From positions 292,226 to 356,225 of the forward strand of contig CP029803.1 of NCBI GenBank assembly GCA_003226295.1: a DNA stretch of 64,000 nucleotides, given 5' to 3'. The position numbers and the translations under genes were made by a program. The notes below the pieces were generated by a model. That model saw only the letters and a list, made by a program, of their open reading frames with translations. It was not told the DNA's origin and ran no database searches. Within the stretch, counting starts at the first letter, position 1. Every line of letters begins with the position of its first letter. Below, piece after piece: positions 46,363-58,160 of this stretch. Origin of the DNA: Candidatus Moanabacter tarae (GTDB lineage: Bacteria > Verrucomicrobiota > Verrucomicrobiia > Opitutales > UBA2987).

Positions 46363-48921
46363 ATGAAAAGCTCTCTCAAAACCCCGGATTCCTTTTTTGG
46401 TTTTCAACTTGGCAGCGACCGAAAGATGGCACGTTGGGACCGTATAGTGGAATACCTAATGGAGTTGAATGAAGAGAGTGATCGGATTCAAGTTATGGAA
46501 ATGGGACCTTCTACCGAGGGATATCCCTTTCTGCTGGTCGTGGTTTCCTCTCCGGAAAATCTTGTAGATTTGGATAGATTGAAATCGATCAACGATTGTA
46601 TAAAAGATCCTCGTGGAGAGATGGAGGATGCGATCGAGGGACTGATTGAGACTGGGAAAGCGATTATTTTGCAGTCGATGGGTCTGCATGCTTCGGAAAT
46701 CGGCAGTACTCAGATGGCGCCCGAATTAATTTACGAATTGGTCTCCAGCGAGGATAGGGAAGCAGTCCGAATACGCGAGGAGGTGATTTCGCTTTTTATT
46801 CCCTGTTTTAATCCTGACGGGCAAATTAAGGTTACGGATTGGTATAACGAGTACTTGGATACCGAGTATGAAGGTTGCGCACTGCCTTGGCTCTACCACA
46901 AGTACGCAGGTCACGACAATAACCGAGACGCTTTCATGTTTAACCTGATTGAGTCCCGTTATGTTGCTAGTATAATGTATCAGGATTGGCATCCACACGC
47001 CTACCAGGATCATCACGAAATGGGTCCCTACGGGGCTCGCCTCTGGATATGTCCCTATGCTGAACCGCTTCATCCTCACGGTGACCCGCTGGTATGGAGA
47101 GAACTCAGTTGGTACGGAGCACACATGGCCTATAGATTGGAAGAAGCAAATAAAACAGGTGTTCTTAATGCTTCTATCTTTCCCGCTTGGAGCCATCTTG
47201 GATTCCATTGGATGGGAAATTATCACAACATTGCCAGTATGCTGACCGAATCAGCTCACGCTAAACTAGCGACCCCGCTTTATGTCCATACGGGCCAATT
47301 GAAAGGTCAAGATGACCGAAAAAAGGCTGAGGGTGCCGAAGGAAATACATTGAGAGGATTTCCTGAATACAAACCACAGACAAATTTCCCTCATCCATGG
47401 CCGGGAGGATGGTGGCGGCTTCGCGACATTGTCGAGCAGCAGAAAATTGCCGCTTGGGGGCTGTTAGATATGGCAGCAAGGAACCGGGACGTCATCCTTC
47501 GGAATGCCTATCTAAAGGCGCAGCGACAGATGGAACTGGGCACTAAGGGTCGGTTCCTCGGCTATCTTGTTTCTGCTGATCAGCATGATTGGCCCACAAC
47601 CTTGTTAATGATTGAAAAGCTTTTGGTTCAGGGAATAGAGATTAAGAAAGCAGCTCAAAATATTTTGGTTGGAGGGGTTATATATCCGGCCGGTTCCTTT
47701 TGGTTATCTCTGAACCAACCCAAGATGGGCGTTATAAAAACTCTCCTTGGGCAGACCCAATATCCAGACAACGTCTGGACTCGTCAACCGGATGGAAGCC
47801 CAGAAAGACCCTATGATTCTGCGACCGACACGATCGCGGAATTTATGGGTGTGGATGTAGTTCCAGTTGATAGCGAACCTGTCGGAACCCTCGAAATAGT
47901 GTCTGAGTTAGAGCCGCCTGTTGGAGAGGTTATTGGCTCCTCAAACTTTGGCTATCTTTTTGACGGGAGGCTGAATGAAAGCTACCGAGTCCTGAATCAA
48001 CTTTGGGACAAAGACTTAAAGTTGACCCGTGTTATTGAAGCCTGTTCAATACGCGAAAGAAATTTTCCGCCAGGTGCATTCGTCGTGGAAAAAAAAGGTT
48101 TGCAATCAATTGAGCAAATTTCTCGAGAATCCTGCGTCACTTTCCATGGACTTGAGAGGGAATTGAAGGTTGAGCAGTATAAGATTTGTAGGCGGAAAGT
48201 AGGGATCTATCAACGATATTGGGGCGGGAACATGGATGAGGGTTGGACCCGTTTAGTTTTAGAGCAATTCGGTTTTCCTTTCCAGGTATTGCATGACGAG
48301 GAGATCAAGCAAGGCAAACTAGAGAATTCTATTGATGTGCTTATTTTGCCAGATGATACGATCGACATGATCACGGGAAAAAAAACAGCAGAACGGCTTA
48401 AATCAAATCCGGTTCCCCCTGAGTATCGTAGTGGAATTGGTAAAAAGGGGATCAAGGCGATTCGTAATTTTGTTGAGAGTGGGGGGATGCTAGTGTGTCT
48501 TAACCAGGCCTGTGATTTTGCGATCGAAAAGTTAGATCTTCAATTAAAGAACCTTCTCCGTAATCTACCAAGTAAGGATTTTTTCTGCCCCGGATCTACC
48601 TTGAAAGCTCGAATTGAGATTGGCCATCCTCTGACATTTGGAATGCCGGAGGAACTACTGGTTCTGTTTTGGAACGGAGCTGCTTTCGAGATTCTCCCAT
48701 CCTTCTCTAATGATCACTACGAAGTTTTGATGCAGTACCCTGATTCAAATATTCTACAAAGTGGTTGGTTGGTTGGTGAGGATCGGGTCGCCGGGAAGGC
48801 AGCGATGGTTTCAGCTCATTTGGGTGATGGCGAGGTCGTTCTTTTCGGTTTTAGACCACAACACCGGGCACAGACTCACGGGACTTACAAGCTGCTATTT
48901 AACACGTTGATAGGAGCCTAA
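46363..48921 (+). CDS. M14 zinc carboxypeptidase-like protein with C-terminal amidotransferase-like domain
   Basis: This 852-residue protein has an N-terminal M14 metallopeptidase region. The zinc ligands are proposed as His109 and Glu112 (GLHASE), with a third His among 210-218 (DWHPHAYQDHHEMG). NNRD supplies the substrate-binding arginine, and Glu296 (MLTESAH) the general base. Residues from about 520 to 852 look like a flavodoxin/class I amidotransferase-like domain (IDVLILPDDTID, FVESGGMLVCLNQACDFA). No signal peptide is visible, so action inside the cell or at an unconventional location is implied. A TTCG hairpin precedes the ATG at 46363. Cleavage target unknown. Confidence 0.85.
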   Translation: MKSSLKTPDSFFGFQLGSDRKMARWDRIVEYLMELNEESDRIQVMEMGPSTEGYPFLLVVVSSPENLVDLDRLKSINDCIKDPRGEMEDAIEGLIETGKAIILQSMGLHASEIGSTQMAPELIYELVSSEDREAVRIREEVISLFIPCFNPDGQIKVTDWYNEYLDTEYEGCALPWLYHKYAGHDNNRDAFMFNLIESRYVASIMYQDWHPHAYQDHHEMGPYGARLWICPYAEPLHPHGDPLVWRELSWYGAHMAYRLEEANKTGVLNASIFPAWSHLGFHWMGNYHNIASMLTESAHAKLATPLYVHTGQLKGQDDRKKAEGAEGNTLRGFPEYKPQTNFPHPWPGGWWRLRDIVEQQKIAAWGLLDMAARNRDVILRNAYLKAQRQMELGTKGRFLGYLVSADQHDWPTTLLMIEKLLVQGIEIKKAAQNILVGGVIYPAGSFWLSLNQPKMGVIKTLLGQTQYPDNVWTRQPDGSPERPYDSATDTIAEFMGVDVVPVDSEPVGTLEIVSELEPPVGEVIGSSNFGYLFDGRLNESYRVLNQLWDKDLKLTRVIEACSIRERNFPPGAFVVEKKGLQSIEQISRESCVTFHGLERELKVEQYKICRRKVGIYQRYWGGNMDEGWTRLVLEQFGFPFQVLHDEEIKQGKLENSIDVLILPDDTIDMITGKKTAERLKSNPVPPEYRSGIGKKGIKAIRNFVESGGMLVCLNQACDFAIEKLDLQLKNLLRNLPSKDFFCPGSTLKARIEIGHPLTFGMPEELLVLFWNGAAFEILPSFSNDHYEVLMQYPDSNILQSGWLVGEDRVAGKAAMVSAHLGDGEVVLFGFRPQHRAQTHGTYKLLFNTLIGA

Positions 48922-50189: not shown

Positions 50190-53100
50190 TCACACTGTTT
50201 GCTCTGACGAGTCTTCGATAGAAGAGTTTTCAGCAAGCTTCTCCAGGGCCTCGTGTAGCATTTCTTCTCGCTCTTCAGTATCTACGATCCGCCAATGCAA
50301 GAAATGTGTTCTGATCAGGGCGACGAAGCTGTTGTTGAGCCGAAGCCATGATTCGCGTGTGCCCGAAAGGTGATATAAACTAATGTTGGCCCGGAACTGA
50401 TCGGTGAGCGTGTGCTTTGGTAAGGATATGGTTAATTGCTGTGAAACGCCCAGATCAAAGGGTTTGAGCCAAATGGGGGCGCTGATATTTGGGATCAGAT
50501 CTTTTTTAGAGTTGGGATCTAGAGCCTCCGCTAGACTGATTTTAGGGATTCCAGAAAAAAATCGCCCGGAACTTCCTTCACCCTGATTCCTAAGATATCG
50601 ATCAAAGAAGGCTAGGACGGCAAAACGTTCTCTTTGGCTGAAGATAAACGGGAGATCAAATTCTAAGATCTCGGCGTTCGCACCGGTCGGTTTTGGTAAG
50701 TTCCATCCAGCGTCTTCCGATGGAGTCGCAATTTCTGCTGCAGTTCGGGCAGGAAACCATGAAGATAAGATTACTACCCCGCCTAAGGCTATTGAGGCGT
50801 AGACAGTGGTAATTGAGGTAAAGGTCATGTTCATACCCCCAGTTAGATCTAGCGTGGTTAGGATACGTCCCATTCCCTGACTGAGAAGATAACCAAGGAG
50901 TGAGCTGACCACCAAATACACCAGAGATTCAGCAAAAAAGATAAAGAAGACAAAACGAGGTGCGATGCCAACAGCATTGTAGACATAGATTTCATCACGT
51001 CTTTCGAACACGGAACCACGGATTGTATTTAGTACGGTCAGAGAGGCCAGTACCAGAGGGATCAGCAAATCGATTAGACCTGCCAAGGACAGTTTTCGAG
51101 TACGCCAGCCTTTGTAGGCAACTCCATCTATACCATAGTAGACGGGAGCTGCCTTTTGTTCTAGAAAATCATTAACTTCTGTACGCATCATCTGGTAGTC
51201 CAGTTCTGACATAACGACTGCGACGGAAAAAGTACGGTCTTGAGAATTAGAGGCACCTAGGCTCAGTTCTCTCATTGGTGCCAGAATCACTCTATCGGCA
51301 GAAATTCTTGGGTCTTCATCATTTGCTAGGATGGCGGTTCCATCTTTACGATATTTGACAATTACTTCCATTGCTTCGATGTCGAAAGGCAAAAGATCTC
51401 TACCGTCGAGGTCCCGTAATGCGGTGAGTGATTCAGAATCGAATATACCCCTTACACGGCACCTTCGACCCCCAATTGTAATATAAACCTCAGATTGATC
51501 TACGACATATGGTATGATCCCAAGCCGGCTAGCCATTCCATCTGGAATGATTACTGGAAATTGTTCTGTGGTGCTATCTTCATCAACCGTTGAAAACCAC
51601 CAGGGATTAGTGAGAAACTTTAATTGCTCTCGCAAGGGTTCTCTGTGGCTGAACTGAATGACCGAATCAAACTTCACCTTTCTTTTTGTCTGGCTTCTTT
51701 CGTAGACCGCCTCGAGGTCCGGATTCCTACGGCTTTTGTCAGAAGCGTGTTCCATACCCACAAGAAATTTCCGGGGACAGACGGCGTAGTGATCGCCAAA
51801 CTGTTCCTGGAGAGCCATTACTTCGGATTGGGTGGTTGGTTCCATCAGTTCTCCAGCCTTAATGAGAAAGCCTTGATAGGAAGCTTTACCTAACGCAAAG
51901 GACTCATCCACGATATCGTTTTTCACAGTGGTAAAACAGATCATGGCCAAAATGAGTAGGGTGAGCGTGGCGCAGGTGAGACCGGTGCGCATCCGGCGCC
52001 GGTGCATGTTATTCAGTCCTAACATAAAGGCTGAACCGACGACCCCCAGTGGATTTACCGTTGCCTGAGCCACTTTCCCAGCCTGACGTTGAAGATCCTC
52101 AAGGTTTTCTTGGAACTTTGAGGAAAAAAGAACGGTGACGCCAAAAGTAATGAGAATGATTATGAAGCCCAACAGAATCATCAGCGATGAGCGGACCATG
52201 GCAAAGGCAGGATGGAGCAAACGCAAGAGGACAAAGACAACGAGGAAAATAACGGCTTGTGAAATCAGTTGTTTGCGAATGTCGGGATAACAGAAAACCA
52301 ATTTTTCAAAGAAAAAGACAAAAGGAACGAGGAGAGCAAGATACCACAGAATACTGATTATTGCTTCGAAGACGGATTCCCTTAGGATTGGATGGTTCAA
52401 AATTCCATAGACGTTCGCCTTCCGGGCATACCTCATGCTTTCATGTTGGATCTCCGATTTATTCTCGGCCTTTTTTAGATTAAACAGCATTCGGTTGTGG
52501 TGCTCATTGGTACGGGAATCTGCCATGGCGTAACTGTTCTGTAGACTCAATCGATGGGCATTTACGGATGCCATAGATTGAGCTACCCGGTGGGGTACCC
52601 GGAGTACAAAAGGATGGTCTGCAACAAGAAAGCCAGGGCCTTCAATGTCTTTTTTTCTACGCGCGTTGATAGGAATTTTCGGTCCTAACATGAATGCTCG
52701 TGTCACTTGGACGAGTTCATTGTCTACTGCTCCGGCCTGCAGTTCAATGTACACATGTTCGTCTGGTTCCAGGAAAGTGACGTCAATGCTAGGATCTCGG
52801 AAATTACAGAGTTTTTTGGCCATTGCCATACCATCTGAATCGATCATTGAAATAGCAGAGTAATCTTTGAGTGTTTGTGGATTGATAAGGTCGATTACCG
52901 CCATGGGAGACGCGCGGAAGGTGACGATAGATATATCTTTTGTAGCCGACTTCCTAGTTCCCAAATCAACCGATTTAAATAGACGCTGGGCCTCTTCACC
53001 CTCGTCCTTTATGTAATTCACGAGCCCGGTCTTATCGTAGGTGGCTGCAATGGGGTTGTACTTATTGACCGTAACAACGAAGCGAGAGCTATTGTGAGGG

Positions 53101-55391
53101 AGATTAAATTCTCCGTAGACATCGGTCATTACAAGCGGATGGGCATAGTGGCCAGGATAGCTGAAAGAGTCATCATCTGGCTCAGGGCGCCCTCCAATGA
53201 CAGCCCCACTGATGGGGTAATCTGGAACCATTGATCTACCGACATTTGAAGCTAGCACCCTTCCATTGAATGCTCTCTGTTCCTCGTCGTGGGGAGTTAC
53301 AGGACCAACCAGTCCAGCCCCATGGGCCATCGAGAGGAATGATTCTCCGATAACAGAGAGGCTGTTTTTTAAAGAGGCTACTGACTTTAGGGGAAGTACA
53401 GTGACCGGGTCGTGGAAGTGGCTATAGGATCCACGGCGGTCGAAATTAACAAATGTGTGAGAGGCATAGCCATAATTAGTCCACATTCGTCCAGAATAAT
53501 TGGGTATTGGACCTATATTCTGCGCAACTCGTTCGTACTGAGTCTGGGAGAGAGAGGGAATATACACGCTTTCCTCATCCTTTCTCAAACGGCGTTTGGC
53601 ATTTGAAAGCACGCTTAGAATACTAAAAGCGTCAGTTTCAACATGTACGGTTCCAGTGTCGAAGCTAAGGACCTCAGCTTGAGATTCACCGCTCTTGGCA
53701 GGCGCGAGTTTCGCTTCAAGAATCGCTATATTATCGTAGTCTGAAAGTTCCCTCGCGATATTAATGTCGGCGGATATTTGGGTGGCACGCTTCTCGTGGT
53801 GTGCTTTGATTTCGAGTATGCGTCGGAGGGTACGGCCCCTAACATCTTGTGACCGGACATAATCTGGTTTAGCTACAGCTAGATTCATCGCGCGGTACCC
53901 GCTTGCCGACATTGCCGTTTCGTATTCACGGCGTAATTGCTGATACTGTAGAAAGATCGGATCTTTTGCCGACGTTTTGGGATTGCGAAGAAAAGCCAAA
54001 CGCGCTTGAAGGAGGGGCTCTTTTTTCTCAAATACGAGGGTATCGAGGACGAACTCAAATTGAGACTCAAACTCCTCGCGAGTTCCTCTATCCAGTTTCC
54101 CAAGAAGGGTTTTTGTTACTTCAGAGTTGAGGAGAAATTTCCTGTTTTCAAAGAGTGGTAATATCGATTGGATCCTTCCAAGTTCCGTTGCGTTGGACTC
54201 CCTATCCTCAATGAGGGGGGCGAGTCGGCGTGAAGCATCGATACTTAAAGCCTGATTTTCGTAACCAAGTGGGGGGGTCTGTGATTTTGCCGATCCAGAG
54301 CCTTTTACCGCATTCGTTTGGAGTACCCTTATGAGATTGTTGGTACCATCTTCTGCCATGACTCGGGCTCCAGAGCTGACAAAGAAAATATCGCGCGCAA
54401 GAGTGTCTCGATAGGATAAGAATCCTTTGAGTAGCTGAAGCTGGACCGCTGGCCCCAGGGCTTGGAGAGTTCCAGGAGCACGATCAGGAAGAATCGAAGT
54501 AGCTCCGTGGGAAGTGAACAAGACCAAGGCCTCACGTGCCTTTTGCTCGGCTCTAAGGATCCCGATAACGGTTTGATTCGGAATGTTGTCGTAAGTGACT
54601 CGAATCTTCAAACGAAGTCGCTTCCCGACATGACTAAAAATACCTGGGGTTGCGGCGAGCCTTACGTAGTTAACGGGAGCGCTTGATACCATACCGGACT
54701 TGCGGCTTGCTACTGAAATCCATGGTACTTGTTCAAACCCGTCAGGATGGGAAACGATGAGCGCTTTGATTCCAAGTCTTGCATATGTTGTCCAGCGGAA
54801 TTCGTACCGTTTATCGATTTGTGCTTGGCGAACATCGAGGAGGCCTATGCAGTCGTCGAATTGTCCTCGAGTATTAAGTGTCTCGGGGGTGAGTAGAATT
54901 AGTTCGCCGGTTATTCCTTCCTCAGGAGTGACGGAGGGTTGAAGATAATTGGGCATGAAGGGATAGACCTCAACATCTGGTACGGGTACATCTTGGGGGA
55001 AGCCGTCAGGTCCAGTACGTATGATAGAAATTTCTCGTTGGTGAGTGATAGGCACAGTAGATAGAAGATCCTGTGTTAGAATCTCCAGGCCTGCATCCTT
55101 GTAAGCCTTTTCCATAAACTCTTCTGCGGCATAGAAGCCGGGTTGACCAAGGAATCTAGATCCCAAGGTGAGGATCTCTTCCTGCCGCTTCTCTATCATG
55201 TCCGATTGCATAGCTTGTTGCATTGGCAGGGGATCGTAGGCATCGGAGGGGAAGACAAGGCCTGACCGGGGCTCCTTTGTGAAGCGGAAAGCGTAACAAA
55301 CAAGAGCGACAAATGCGAGTACAACAAAAACGGTTCCGATGATGGTATCACTGATAAACCGACCAGATGATTCTTGTTTTTCGCACCCCAT
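50190..55391 (-). CDS. Giant 1733-residue M28-like/FtsX-like permease fusion protein
   Basis: This very large membrane protein has a transmembrane anchor at about residues 11-36, then an extracytoplasmic region. A PA-like insert precedes an M28-aminopeptidase-like fold around residue 295 (LFTSHGATS), whose HxD and EE metal motifs are degenerate. Middle parts include a coiled segment and a carboxypeptidase-regulatory-like Ig domain (MTDVYGEFNLPHNSS). Three helices lie near 1005-1085. A MacB-type FtsX module follows: RRRMRTGLTCATLTLLILAM (about 1140), periplasmic core, then helices near 1447, 1489 and 1535 with VLNTIRGSVFERRDEIYVYNAVG. About 170 cytosolic residues end it. No ABC ATPase gene is nearby. 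It is downstream of the DUF6785-type gene by 86 bases. Confidence 0.85.
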   Translation of the reverse strand: MGCEKQESSGRFISDTIIGTVFVVLAFVALVCYAFRFTKEPRSGLVFPSDAYDPLPMQQAMQSDMIEKRQEEILTLGSRFLGQPGFYAAEEFMEKAYKDAGLEILTQDLLSTVPITHQREISIIRTGPDGFPQDVPVPDVEVYPFMPNYLQPSVTPEEGITGELILLTPETLNTRGQFDDCIGLLDVRQAQIDKRYEFRWTTYARLGIKALIVSHPDGFEQVPWISVASRKSGMVSSAPVNYVRLAATPGIFSHVGKRLRLKIRVTYDNIPNQTVIGILRAEQKAREALVLFTSHGATSILPDRAPGTLQALGPAVQLQLLKGFLSYRDTLARDIFFVSSGARVMAEDGTNNLIRVLQTNAVKGSGSAKSQTPPLGYENQALSIDASRRLAPLIEDRESNATELGRIQSILPLFENRKFLLNSEVTKTLLGKLDRGTREEFESQFEFVLDTLVFEKKEPLLQARLAFLRNPKTSAKDPIFLQYQQLRREYETAMSASGYRAMNLAVAKPDYVRSQDVRGRTLRRILEIKAHHEKRATQISADINIARELSDYDNIAILEAKLAPAKSGESQAEVLSFDTGTVHVETDAFSILSVLSNAKRRLRKDEESVYIPSLSQTQYERVAQNIGPIPNYSGRMWTNYGYASHTFVNFDRRGSYSHFHDPVTVLPLKSVASLKNSLSVIGESFLSMAHGAGLVGPVTPHDEEQRAFNGRVLASNVGRSMVPDYPISGAVIGGRPEPDDDSFSYPGHYAHPLVMTDVYGEFNLPHNSSRFVVTVNKYNPIAATYDKTGLVNYIKDEGEEAQRLFKSVDLGTRKSATKDISIVTFRASPMAVIDLINPQTLKDYSAISMIDSDGMAMAKKLCNFRDPSIDVTFLEPDEHVYIELQAGAVDNELVQVTRAFMLGPKIPINARRKKDIEGPGFLVADHPFVLRVPHRVAQSMASVNAHRLSLQNSYAMADSRTNEHHNRMLFNLKKAENKSEIQHESMRYARKANVYGILNHPILRESVFEAIISILWYLALLVPFVFFFEKLVFCYPDIRKQLISQAVIFLVVFVLLRLLHPAFAMVRSSLMILLGFIIILITFGVTVLFSSKFQENLEDLQRQAGKVAQATVNPLGVVGSAFMLGLNNMHRRRMRTGLTCATLTLLILAMICFTTVKNDIVDESFALGKASYQGFLIKAGELMEPTTQSEVMALQEQFGDHYAVCPRKFLVGMEHASDKSRRNPDLEAVYERSQTKRKVKFDSVIQFSHREPLREQLKFLTNPWWFSTVDEDSTTEQFPVIIPDGMASRLGIIPYVVDQSEVYITIGGRRCRVRGIFDSESLTALRDLDGRDLLPFDIEAMEVIVKYRKDGTAILANDEDPRISADRVILAPMRELSLGASNSQDRTFSVAVVMSELDYQMMRTEVNDFLEQKAAPVYYGIDGVAYKGWRTRKLSLAGLIDLLIPLVLASLTVLNTIRGSVFERRDEIYVYNAVGIAPRFVFFIFFAESLVYLVVSSLLGYLLSQGMGRILTTLDLTGGMNMTFTSITTVYASIALGGVVILSSWFPARTAAEIATPSEDAGWNLPKPTGANAEILEFDLPFIFSQRERFAVLAFFDRYLRNQGEGSSGRFFSGIPKISLAEALDPNSKKDLIPNISAPIWLKPFDLGVSQQLTISLPKHTLTDQFRANISLYHLSGTRESWLRLNNSFVALIRTHFLHWRIVDTEEREEMLHEALEKLAENSSIEDSSEQTV

Positions 55392-55476
55392 GAACTAGTC
55401 TTACTCCGGTAGCGAGCTATCGGTGGTAGATGCTTCGCGGGTAACAATCATCAGGTTTCTGCGTTTGAACTCTCTC

Positions 55477-58065
55477 TCAGCTTCCAGTAGGAGCGGGGCC
55501 GAAAAGCAAAGGGATACCCCAAGTTCCGGGTTGGTAGTGATAGAGCCAAGCATTTACTATAAAGAACCCCGCATGTGCCGTTACACTTCCAAGAAGAATT
55601 CCAATAGCTGCAGGATACAGTTTTTCTCTGACCATCTGAGCACTTCCAAGCTTTAAAACAAGAAATCTGATTAGAAAGGCCAAAAATATAGCCCCCCAAG
55701 TTTGCTGCATCATTACTGAGGGTGCAAGGATGAAACCAATTGGATGAAACCAGAATCCGGCAAAGGCTTGTCTTAGCAATGTTACTACGGCAGTCCCACC
55801 TCCAGAGACAATGAGTGCCCATGTGGGTCCACCTAATCCCCGATCAACTTGAGATCCATCACCTGTTTCAAGGAAATCTTCCGTCGCTTTCGCATGCCAG
55901 CCGACGAACTCTCCGAAATTTTCAATCTCAAGGTCATAGCTGTTCATGTCTCCATAATAGTTAGCACCTGTACCGTAAAGTCCAATTAGGTACATCCAAC
56001 CCCCAACCGCTAAACCGCCAAAAAGTCCCATCAGGCCAGTGTATAAGATGTGCCTAGGACGAACCTTTAAGCGTCGCCCTGATTCCAGCATCTCGAACTG
56101 GAGACCGGGAACATTAAAAAAGGCCCGGACTCCGATGGTAATAGAAAAGATCAACCATATGATTGAGCCTTGTGGCCCGAGAAAGGCAGCACCTCCAATG
56201 ATCGGCACCATGAACCAGAATCGGATTGGATAGGCGAACCCATGTACGACTCCACATTCTGCCCTCAGTTTTATGGTAACGATGGTGATGGCTAGAAGAA
56301 AAGCGAAATAGGTCAAAAGACCCTGAAGCTTTATATCCATCCACTGTGACCAGAGAGCTACACCAGCAAAGCTAGCGATGATAATAACAACAGCTGTACG
56401 GGAAGAAAAAACTTCATCCGGTTGTTTGATGCCGCGAATTGCTTCCTTCAGAACCCCCACGATATGTCTATGTGAGAGAATGAGAATGAGTATCGCATAG
56501 GTTATGAAGTTACCCGCGATTTGTTCATTGAACCATGGGTAGCCCGCGTTAACATTCCAGCCGTAGGCCTCACCAAACCAGTACTGTGATCGAAAGAGAA
56601 AATAGCCTAGGACCAGACTCATGGTGATGTTCAGGTCCATAAAGAGGGCCAGACCCAGGAAGAAGGCTGGAGCTGTTAAGTTTACTCCACTCATCATTGC
56701 TGCCATGGCGGGATCGGTGAAATAAGATTTAAGATTAAGATTAATGCTTAAATTGGGGAATGAAGAATCGAGATAGGCATAGCCCCGTAAAAGACACCAT
56801 ATAAGTGCAGGGACAAAGGCAGCCCACATTACCCAGTTCTTCCAGATCGGAGGAAAGGCCTTAGATTCATCACCTTCTCCATCAAAGCCAATGAGAAAAC
56901 GAGGTATCTGCATCAAGGGGAGGAGAAAGCGCTCTCGGTCAACCCATTGACGACGCATGATGACGGAGAAGGCAAAGCTAGCGGCAATTAGACAAAAAAG
57001 TAGGGATCCCCAAGCACAGAATGGTCCTACCCATTGCTTTAGGGGAACATAAGCAGACAGGAGAAATCGAATTCCCTCAAAGCTTAGAAGCTTATCGGGT
57101 CGAACTCTTTTCCCGATGCGATGAGAGGCCGGTAGTCGCGCATACTCGGCCTCAGTGATAGCTTCTGCTCCCCCGTAGGCATCATTTATAGCTGCAACGT
57201 TCATTATTTGGAGATCGCGGAAGACTGCTTTACCTCTTCCTGACAATCCAAATTGGAGTCGGATTTTCTCCTCGGTTTCGAATGGCACAACAAGACCGTA
57301 AGTTCCAAATCGCTGAAAGCCGGTCTTTTGCAGGTAAGTTCTTGGCGTATCACCTGAACCTAAAAAGGCTTCCTCAAGGAATTGCTCTTGATCGTCCAGA
57401 AAGACACGGCAAAAATAAGTTGAAGTAGCATCAACGTTTTGGGTCCGTATAAGAATGCTAAGTATATAAGGTTGCCCCGGGGTAATTTGCCATTTCCCGT
57501 CGCGCTTTAAGGGAAGTAGTATTTCAAAGGATGAAAAGTCGCCGAGATCGCTGTTTTCCAGAGTTGGGATATTTGCCCAGACCCCTTGCGTGATTTCAGC
57601 CTGGGCTATCGAAAAATTGCCCTTTGCTTCAAAATTTCCAACCGATGATAATTCAAGCAATCCCTGCGTAATATTGGGTCCGTGAGCCCAGAGTTTTTCA
57701 TTCAAGGCATCAATTTTTTCGAAATCTGCTGATTTTGGAACGGTTGATAAACGACCAAGCATATAACGCCAGAAACCAGCATTTACGAGTGGCGAAGCGA
57801 TCAGACACGAAAAAAGGATAAAAAACATCTCAGCCCGCGTAAAAAGGCGCTTTCGCGTGGCTAAGAAGACAAGGCCAGATACTAAAGTGAAAGCAATGCA
57901 CATCCAGAGAGCGGGAATGGGCATCGCCTCTTCTCCGACAAATAGAAATGCCCCTTCAATGGATCCTCCGAAATGGATTATCCCCCCCATCATCACCATC
58001 GCAAAGAGGCTCGCTCCAAAGGAGCGAATGGTTAGGGCGCGACGGAACGGGGTTTCCTTTGCCAT
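55477..58065 (-). CDS. DUF6785/DUF6784-type polytopic membrane protein
   Basis: This 862-residue membrane protein has about 14 helices. It begins with a hydrophobic hairpin (SFGASLFAMVMMGGIIHFGG, then WMCIAFTLVSGLVFLA), and a non-membrane beta-rich region spans about residues 95-330 (SVGNFEAKGNFSIAQAE, YGLVVPFETEEKIRLQFGLSG). Two dense helix bundles with GAEAIT and LNINLN stretches follow. It looks like the family annotated DUF6785 (N-part) with DUF6784 (C-part) in PVC bacteria, which resembles oligopeptide-type transporters in layout. The ATG at 58065 is preferred to a TTG at 58074. It precedes the FtsX-like giant, suggesting a joint envelope function. Confidence 0.8.
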   Translation of the reverse strand: MAKETPFRRALTIRSFGASLFAMVMMGGIIHFGGSIEGAFLFVGEEAMPIPALWMCIAFTLVSGLVFLATRKRLFTRAEMFFILFSCLIASPLVNAGFWRYMLGRLSTVPKSADFEKIDALNEKLWAHGPNITQGLLELSSVGNFEAKGNFSIAQAEITQGVWANIPTLENSDLGDFSSFEILLPLKRDGKWQITPGQPYILSILIRTQNVDATSTYFCRVFLDDQEQFLEEAFLGSGDTPRTYLQKTGFQRFGTYGLVVPFETEEKIRLQFGLSGRGKAVFRDLQIMNVAAINDAYGGAEAITEAEYARLPASHRIGKRVRPDKLLSFEGIRFLLSAYVPLKQWVGPFCAWGSLLFCLIAASFAFSVIMRRQWVDRERFLLPLMQIPRFLIGFDGEGDESKAFPPIWKNWVMWAAFVPALIWCLLRGYAYLDSSFPNLSINLNLKSYFTDPAMAAMMSGVNLTAPAFFLGLALFMDLNITMSLVLGYFLFRSQYWFGEAYGWNVNAGYPWFNEQIAGNFITYAILILILSHRHIVGVLKEAIRGIKQPDEVFSSRTAVVIIIASFAGVALWSQWMDIKLQGLLTYFAFLLAITIVTIKLRAECGVVHGFAYPIRFWFMVPIIGGAAFLGPQGSIIWLIFSITIGVRAFFNVPGLQFEMLESGRRLKVRPRHILYTGLMGLFGGLAVGGWMYLIGLYGTGANYYGDMNSYDLEIENFGEFVGWHAKATEDFLETGDGSQVDRGLGGPTWALIVSGGGTAVVTLLRQAFAGFWFHPIGFILAPSVMMQQTWGAIFLAFLIRFLVLKLGSAQMVREKLYPAAIGILLGSVTAHAGFFIVNAWLYHYQPGTWGIPLLFGPAPTGS

Positions 58066-58160
58066 TTTTAACAATTAATGGGTGCTGCTCCCTTCCCGGC
58101 AAGGGGAAAGGCAAAGGAAAGGGATAGAAATAGAGGAGTAGGAGATGGGGGTATGGGAGT

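Follow-up and report, generated by a model that had tools for sequence, protein, structure and literature searches.

A giant M28-like/FtsX protein of Candidatus Moanabacter tarae as a candidate permease subunit of a conserved type VII ABC system with OPT-like partners

We analysed a 64,000-nucleotide stretch of DNA (the window) from Candidatus Moanabacter tarae, whose genome assembly is a 2.63-Mb single contig, 98% complete. Two genes on the same strand, 85 bp apart, together with two features within the first of them, are the subject of this work:

50190..55391, minus strand: candidate giant permease subunit (the giant), 1733 aa, ATG start, uninterrupted ORF
50733..51086, minus strand: FtsX C-terminal domain of the giant, residues ~1436-1553, containing the conserved ERRDEIYVYNAVGIAPR stretch
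54504..54512, minus strand: SHG codons, residues 294-296 of the giant, at the place of the HxD zinc motif in active M28 enzymes
55477..58065, minus strand: DUF6785/DUF6784 protein, 862 aa, in-frame ATG at 58065 within the ORF 55477-58074

The 1733-residue protein and its 862-residue polytopic upstream neighbour were found where the initial annotation, made from the DNA letters and a list of ORFs, had placed them. At the sequence level a chance ORF is excluded for the giant because full-length homologues occur in many phyla. Neither the ORF list nor Pfam showed an ABC ATPase adjoining the pair in the window, and a promoter and terminator scan gave no signal above shuffles. The giant also has, one gene away and on the opposite strand (46363-48921, plus), a neighbour that encodes an M14 zinc carboxypeptidase-like protein of 852 aa (Pfam Peptidase_M14, 3e-13); a recurrent link of this gene with the operon described below was not seen.

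The giant was divided as follows, the positions of its transmembrane helices (TMs) coming from hydropathy averaged over 42 homologues:

Residues ~16-34: N-terminal TM helix
Residues ~50-695: PA-M28 pseudo-peptidase ectodomain
Residues ~700-930: beta-rich region in the predicted model
Between the beta-rich region and the three-TM block: helical stalk
Residues ~1010-1095: three TMs
TM at ~1138-1156, periplasmic core, TMs at ~1436-1548: MacB/LolC-type FtsX module
Residues ~1573-1710: C-terminal domain

AlphaFold2 models, with 41 homologues as input, reached a pLDDT of 88 and a pTM of 0.85 for residues 1-1130, and a pLDDT of 88 and a pTM of 0.66 for residues 1000-1733; a long helical stalk is visible in them. 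The N-terminal TM and the three TMs ahead of the FtsX module correspond to the extra helices of the initial annotation, and no Ig-type Pfam match was found in region 700-930 of any homologue. The last ~140 residues gave a weak helix-grip (START/Bet v 1) match (Z 8.1, 122 aa, 3.2 A), near background. The TM block at 1000-1110 was considered as a second degenerate FtsX module and rejected (hhalign probability 0.8, versus 0.5 for the reversed control); its topology of one TM, an ectodomain and three TMs is still suggestive of such a module.

A sequence-only profile of 33 N-terminal regions of giants matched the PA-M28 aminopeptidase 2ek8 (E 3.5e-15) as well as transferrin receptor, nicastrin and nicalin, and Pfam Peptidase_M28 directly matched 15 of 41 homologues. 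Structural matches of the N-terminal model were likewise dominated by the M28 fold: the ectodomain aligned with 2ek8 (Foldseek 3.2e-13), with BSAP 6hc7 (Z 26.0, rmsd 5.4 A, 379 residues aligned) and with transferrin receptor 1 (TfR1; Z ~24, 405 aa, 7 A). Among 42 giants, the zinc-ligand His of HxD is kept in one, the bridging position is Asp in none, and the first Glu of the EE pair is kept once and the second never; the zinc-site test, which covered HxD, the bridging D and EE as the ligands other than D179 and H256 (Aeromonas enzyme numbering), found these motifs absent as motifs in 42/42. The proposed catalytic degeneracy is thus borne out and, as the tested motifs are gone across the 42 homologues, the dead site is an old property of the family. 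On sequence grounds the M28-like domain is predicted to be a metal-less pseudo-peptidase.

The other half of the giant carries the permease module. Pfam FtsX matched residues 1446-1552 with 43.5 bits (cut-off 25.5) and was found in 41/41 homologues. The architecture first described, an anchored M28-like region joined to a MacB-type FtsX module, is confirmed. The C-terminal half aligned with MacB 5gko (Foldseek 2.9e-11) and more generally with MacB, LolC/E, YtrF and HrtB structures (VIA Z 13-17), and YbbP aligned with this half only (Z 10.3). The arrangement of one TM, a periplasmic core and three TMs that marks the type VII ABC permease fold was found in the giant by homologue Pfam matches and in the model. 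The ERRDEIYVYNAVGIAPR stretch, which makes up, in type VII permeases, the coupling helix on which the ATPase docks, is conserved in it. With the MacB equivalog the giant scored 29 of 966 bits, below the cut-off.

Homologous loci show the setting in which giants usually occur. In G005, a genome of the same order as the window genome, the DUF6785-giant pair is followed by an OPT-like gene, a gene for a 346-aa FtsX permease and two genes for LolD-like ATPases with a PqqD-like gene between them. Profiles from the genes of such operons were searched against six-frame translations of 52 loci, taken from named genome contigs of several phyla. The usual order is DUF6785, giant, OPT-like (~700 aa), small FtsX, ATPase 1, PqqD-like and ATPase 2, and giant and small FtsX are related to each other (hhalign probability 98). 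DUF6785 lies directly 5' of the giant at 35 of the 39 loci with enough flank, a conserved pairing, and the OPT-like gene, which the initial annotation had missed, lies 3' of it at 40 of 42. Where the flank is long, an ATPase is present at 21 of 26 giant loci, the other five being from Gemmatimonadota or Hydrogenedentota. Order varies while membership is constant: in Opitutales the ATPases stand ahead of DUF6785, and three loci (L094, L095, L098) read DUF6785-FtsX-ATPase 1-giant. The system occurs in many environmental bacteria, with records labelled Verrucomicrobiota, Lentisphaerota, Kiritimatiellota, Planctomycetota, Sumerlaeota, Armatimonadota, Hydrogenedentota, Latescibacterota and Gemmatimonadota.

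Several features of single operons or lineages were also recorded. Many operons carry the PqqD-like gene of ~130 aa between the two ATPases (for example L042:5511-5900, minus strand; similar in 14 loci). Proteins of 117-158 aa from one family, which presumably resemble the "four helix bundle"/23S rRNA intervening-sequence proteins, are encoded inside operons (L060:4346-4741, L060:6957-7310, L080:18323-18676, L081:12143-12502, L090:15281-15757), L060 having two such inserts. In one Verrucomicrobiota subgroup (L090, L091, L093; for example L091:1299-3631), a run of pseudopilin-like genes with N-terminal GFTLxE motifs stands ahead of the operon, upstream of ATPase 2. In three genomes (G158, G104, G196) the complete system is present three or four times, every copy with an ATPase pair to itself. 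An eighth, recurrent accessory gene was sought and rejected, as clustering of neighbours returned mostly antisense operon shadows and small lineage-specific groups.

Co-inheritance was assessed in an evenly drawn set of 288 Verrucomicrobiota genomes with a completeness of 85% or more. The giant was present in 51 of them; the OPT-like gene was found in 50 of these 51 and in none of the other 237. It lies directly 3' of the giant on the same strand for 67 of 73 giants (median gap 55 bp), the six exceptions being two in the window genome and four in draft assemblies, several at contig ends. Judging from gene content, the OPT-like transporter is the most strongly conserved partner of the giant. 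Dedicated ATPases were present in 51/51 giant genomes and 0/237 others (Fisher p 6e-58), dedicated being defined as a score of 328 bits or more with the ATPase 1 profile, a cut-off chosen afterwards between the dedicated (332-477 bits) and generic (at most 265 bits) scores of six genomes. In 43 of the 51 genomes the ATPase genes number exactly twice the giants; the eight others are six drafts with one giant and one ATPase, G309 with three giants and five ATPases, and the window genome. A maximum-likelihood tree placed the ATPases of operons and those encoded in trans on one side of a branch (support 98/96) from generic LolD-like ATPases; seven of the generic rows are long branches, which leaves the exact outgroup order unsure. 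Broad clades agree among the trees of giant, OPT-like protein, DUF6785 and ATPase, and the gene composition of the system is well supported by these sequence comparisons.

These data bear on the central reading of the initial annotation, a permease that works without an ATPase. Such a machine would explain why none is encoded near the pair in the window, and the DUF6785-giant-OPT-like clusters of Gemmatimonadota, Latescibacterota and Hydrogenedentota also have no local ATPase. Yet those genomes, where tested, encode in trans both ATPase 1 and the small FtsX, dedicated ATPases accompany the giant in all sampled Verrucomicrobiota genomes that have one, and the coupling-helix stretch is conserved. 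We regard this reading as largely refuted, with next to no chance of being right: the absence of an ATPase beside the pair stands, but a set in trans was found in the window genome itself:

C1:1690880-1695609, ~1.3 Mb from the window pair: OPT-like, small FtsX, ATPase 1 and ATPase 2 genes, all full-length uninterrupted ORFs
C1:1694132-1695609 (G000, the window genome), within this block: ATPase 1 and ATPase 2, nucleotide-binding motifs intact

Both ATPases have Walker A (GPSGSGKST), an LSGGQQQR signature, Walker B (..ADEPT.NLD) and THD, and like those of the orthologous operons they are LolD-like and accompanied by a second FtsX. The ATPase tree places them with their counterparts from the complete operon L051, and the giants and two DUF6785 genes of the window genome fall within a clade holding L051 whose inner supports are low. 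With the motor block intact and grouped with L051, the operon in the window genome was split rather than lost. A PqqD-like gene was not found by profile in the stretches of this genome that were examined.

The window genome has three DUF6785 genes, one of them paired with the window giant, and two giants, 45% identical to each other. That the window pair is instead a decaying leftover of a broken operon, no longer working with the distant motor block, we consider very unlikely. In its favour, nearly all relatives have the operon intact while it is split here, full-length giants are missing from three genomes of the same family, and residue 296 of the window giant is Gly, a position held by Asp in 38 of 42 giants. 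Against it, two giants have been retained, their ORFs and those of the motor block run uninterrupted over the full length, with 45% identity between the giants, and a pattern of several giants with one motor also occurs in unrelated genomes.

Giants and motors stand 1:1 in typical operon genomes. Giants outnumber ATPase pairs (two versus one) only in the window genome among the 51, and this is a single-contig assembly. Further genomes with several giants and one motor, from outside this sample, are drafts, in which second motor copies may be hidden: the Kiritimatiellae genome G326 has four giant loci and one each of the OPT-like, ATPase 1 and ATPase 2 genes; the Gemmatimonadota G328, G329 and G331 have five to seven giant matches each (partial ones included for G328), with one ATPase 1 beside a small FtsX and one ATPase 2 elsewhere; and bin.579 (G325) has two giants and one OPT-like gene. 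The giant-to-motor counts are 2:1 for G000, 4:1 for G326, 6:1 for G329 and 5:1 for G331. The multi-giant, one-motor pattern thus recurs in unrelated groups, and from it we infer that one motor set may serve several giants.

The membrane partners were then compared with known carriers. The 862-aa neighbour matched Pfam DUF6785 (161.5 bits, cut-off 25) and DUF6784 (51.9 bits, cut-off 26.4), families on which the open-licence papers searched had nothing, and its large insert, noted from the start, is a ~240-aa stretch with no predicted TM between the TMs at 80-98 and 352-370. By hhalign, genuine OPT proteins aligned with DUF6785 (probability 97, E 1.2e-11) and with the OPT-like family (probability 95, E 2.5e-8), which aligned with each other at probability 88; reversed-profile controls against OPT gave E values of at least 0.059, and the membrane half of the giant also had no OPT match. 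Pfam OPT (PF03169) gave any match for two of 37 OPT-like members and none for the window genome's own member, and one OPT-like protein scored 43 bits (cut-off 25.8); a sequence search returned no solved structure for the family. DUF6785 and OPT-like proteins are probably remote carriers of the OPT superfamily. Substrates of OPT proteins elsewhere are peptides, glutathione and metal chelates. In Gemmatimonadota and Latescibacterota (L084, L085, L086, L097, L100; for example L085:13000-15675) the OPT-like proteins reach ~890 aa or more, ~200 aa longer than elsewhere.

The whole is best explained, with what we put at an even chance, by the giant being the permease subunit of a type VII (MacB/LolCDE-like) ABC machine that depends on ATPases encoded elsewhere. 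The giant and the small FtsX would pair as a permease heterodimer above an ATPase 1/ATPase 2 heterodimer, and ATP-driven mechanotransmission would move the periplasmic domains. The metal-less PA-M28 domain would recognise cargo, most likely peptides or peptide-bearing cell-wall fragments, much as the inactive M28 folds of transferrin receptor and nicastrin serve as recognition domains. Cargo would then be handed to the OPT-like subunits for movement across the membrane, probably inward, and a single motor set could serve several giants. PqqD-like domains often bind peptides, and their presence in the operon would suit cargo of that kind. Composition and co-inheritance are seen in the sequences themselves, whereas how the parts assemble, what they carry, in which direction, and whether a motor is shared are points that we infer from the genes. 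The idea of an envelope machine, first suggested for the pair, is upheld.

An alternative that we judge unlikely is lipid or lipoprotein extraction as in LolCDE or YbbAP-TesA, in which the giant/small-FtsX pair, powered by the ATPases, would take a lipidic molecule out of the inner membrane and present it to the M28-like domain; the OPT-like proteins would then be membrane partners and not transporters. The FtsX half does resemble LolC/E, MacB, YtrF and HrtB, and the ATPases score best against LolD, but their 225-238 bits fall short of the LolD equivalog cut-off (307.75), as do 205-208 bits of that for FtsE (264.85), and the LolC/E cut-offs are also missed. The weak START/Bet v 1-like matches of the C-terminal domain could point to lipids instead of peptides, and YbbAP-TesA does join a type VII ABC permease to a periplasmic hydrolase (PMC12646458). 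The M28 domain of the giant is dead, however, so no hydrolysis would be expected, and extraction leaves the OPT-like gene in 50 of 51 giant genomes unexplained. The initial annotation had also envisaged orthologues with a cognate ATPase and a macrolide-export-like role; the ATPase exists, but nothing indicates such a role, since the MacB cut-off is missed along with those of LolD and FtsE.

Transmission of force or signals to the cell wall, as by FtsEX-EnvC, would mean that ATP hydrolysis moves the ectodomain of the giant and so controls wall enzymes, nothing being carried across the membrane. The type VII fold and the long stalk would suit this role, and two LysM repeats inserted within the M28 region of six Opitutales-type giants suggest contact with the wall. 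We nevertheless hold it to be decidedly unlikely, since the LysM pair is limited to that subgroup, clustering of operon neighbours gave no recurrent wall hydrolase gene, and two OPT-like subunits would have no explanation.

Returning to the ABC machine with OPT-like partners, a bolder and more tentative extension, possible by analogy though we would not expect it to hold in full, is a new ABC-powered class in which OPT-family transporters draw their energy from LolCDE-type motors and giant pseudo-peptidase receptors can be exchanged on a shared motor, like the S-components of group II ECF transporters. If so, the window genome, with two giants and one motor, would be a natural example of plug-in receptors, and a truly shared motor would add a second modular design to the ABC transporters, next to that of ECF. 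The system would join two transport principles usually kept apart, ABC mechanotransmission and OPT carriers, and it supplies a functional context for DUF6785/DUF6784. An isolated oddity thereby becomes a defined, testable seven-gene system. Open-licence papers contained nothing relevant on the system or on the FtsX/M28 combination, nor a described function for it, in agreement with the initial annotation, and the conserved type VII ABC/OPT system is apparently undescribed.

Compared with MacAB-TolC, the giant has the same MacB/LolC/YtrF/HrtB permease fold in its C-terminal half, but the ATPases are separate genes, 1000 extra N-terminal residues and OPT-like partners are present, and there is no equivalog match. 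LolCDE likewise combines two different FtsX permeases with LolD-like ATPases, and LolD is the best match of the nucleotide-binding domains; here, however, two distinct ATPases take the place of the single LolD, the cut-offs for LolD and for LolC/E are not reached, and the operon ATPases stand apart in the tree. Among characterised systems YbbAP-TesA (PMC12646458) comes nearest, in that its type VII ABC permease works with a periplasmic partner of hydrolase fold; there the esterase is active and separate, whereas the M28 fold of the giant is metal-less and fused. Group II ECF transporters have one module for which several membrane S-components compete (PMC7755397); several recognition subunits with one shared ATP module offer a works-like analogy that the gene counts of the giants fit, with no sequence kinship claimed and sharing by giants read from those counts. 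The DUF6785 and OPT-like partners align with genuine OPT (PF03169) proteins but are obligately co-inherited with ABC genes, most lie below Pfam detection, and DUF6785 has its large extra region. Finally, the ectodomain has a fold in common with PA-M28 aminopeptidases (BSAP, AM-1 aminopeptidase) and with the inactive transferrin receptor and nicastrin; in the giant this fold is fused to an ABC permease and the tested zinc motifs are absent throughout the family, which would make it a bacterial counterpart of the dead M28 peptidases that have been reused as receptors.
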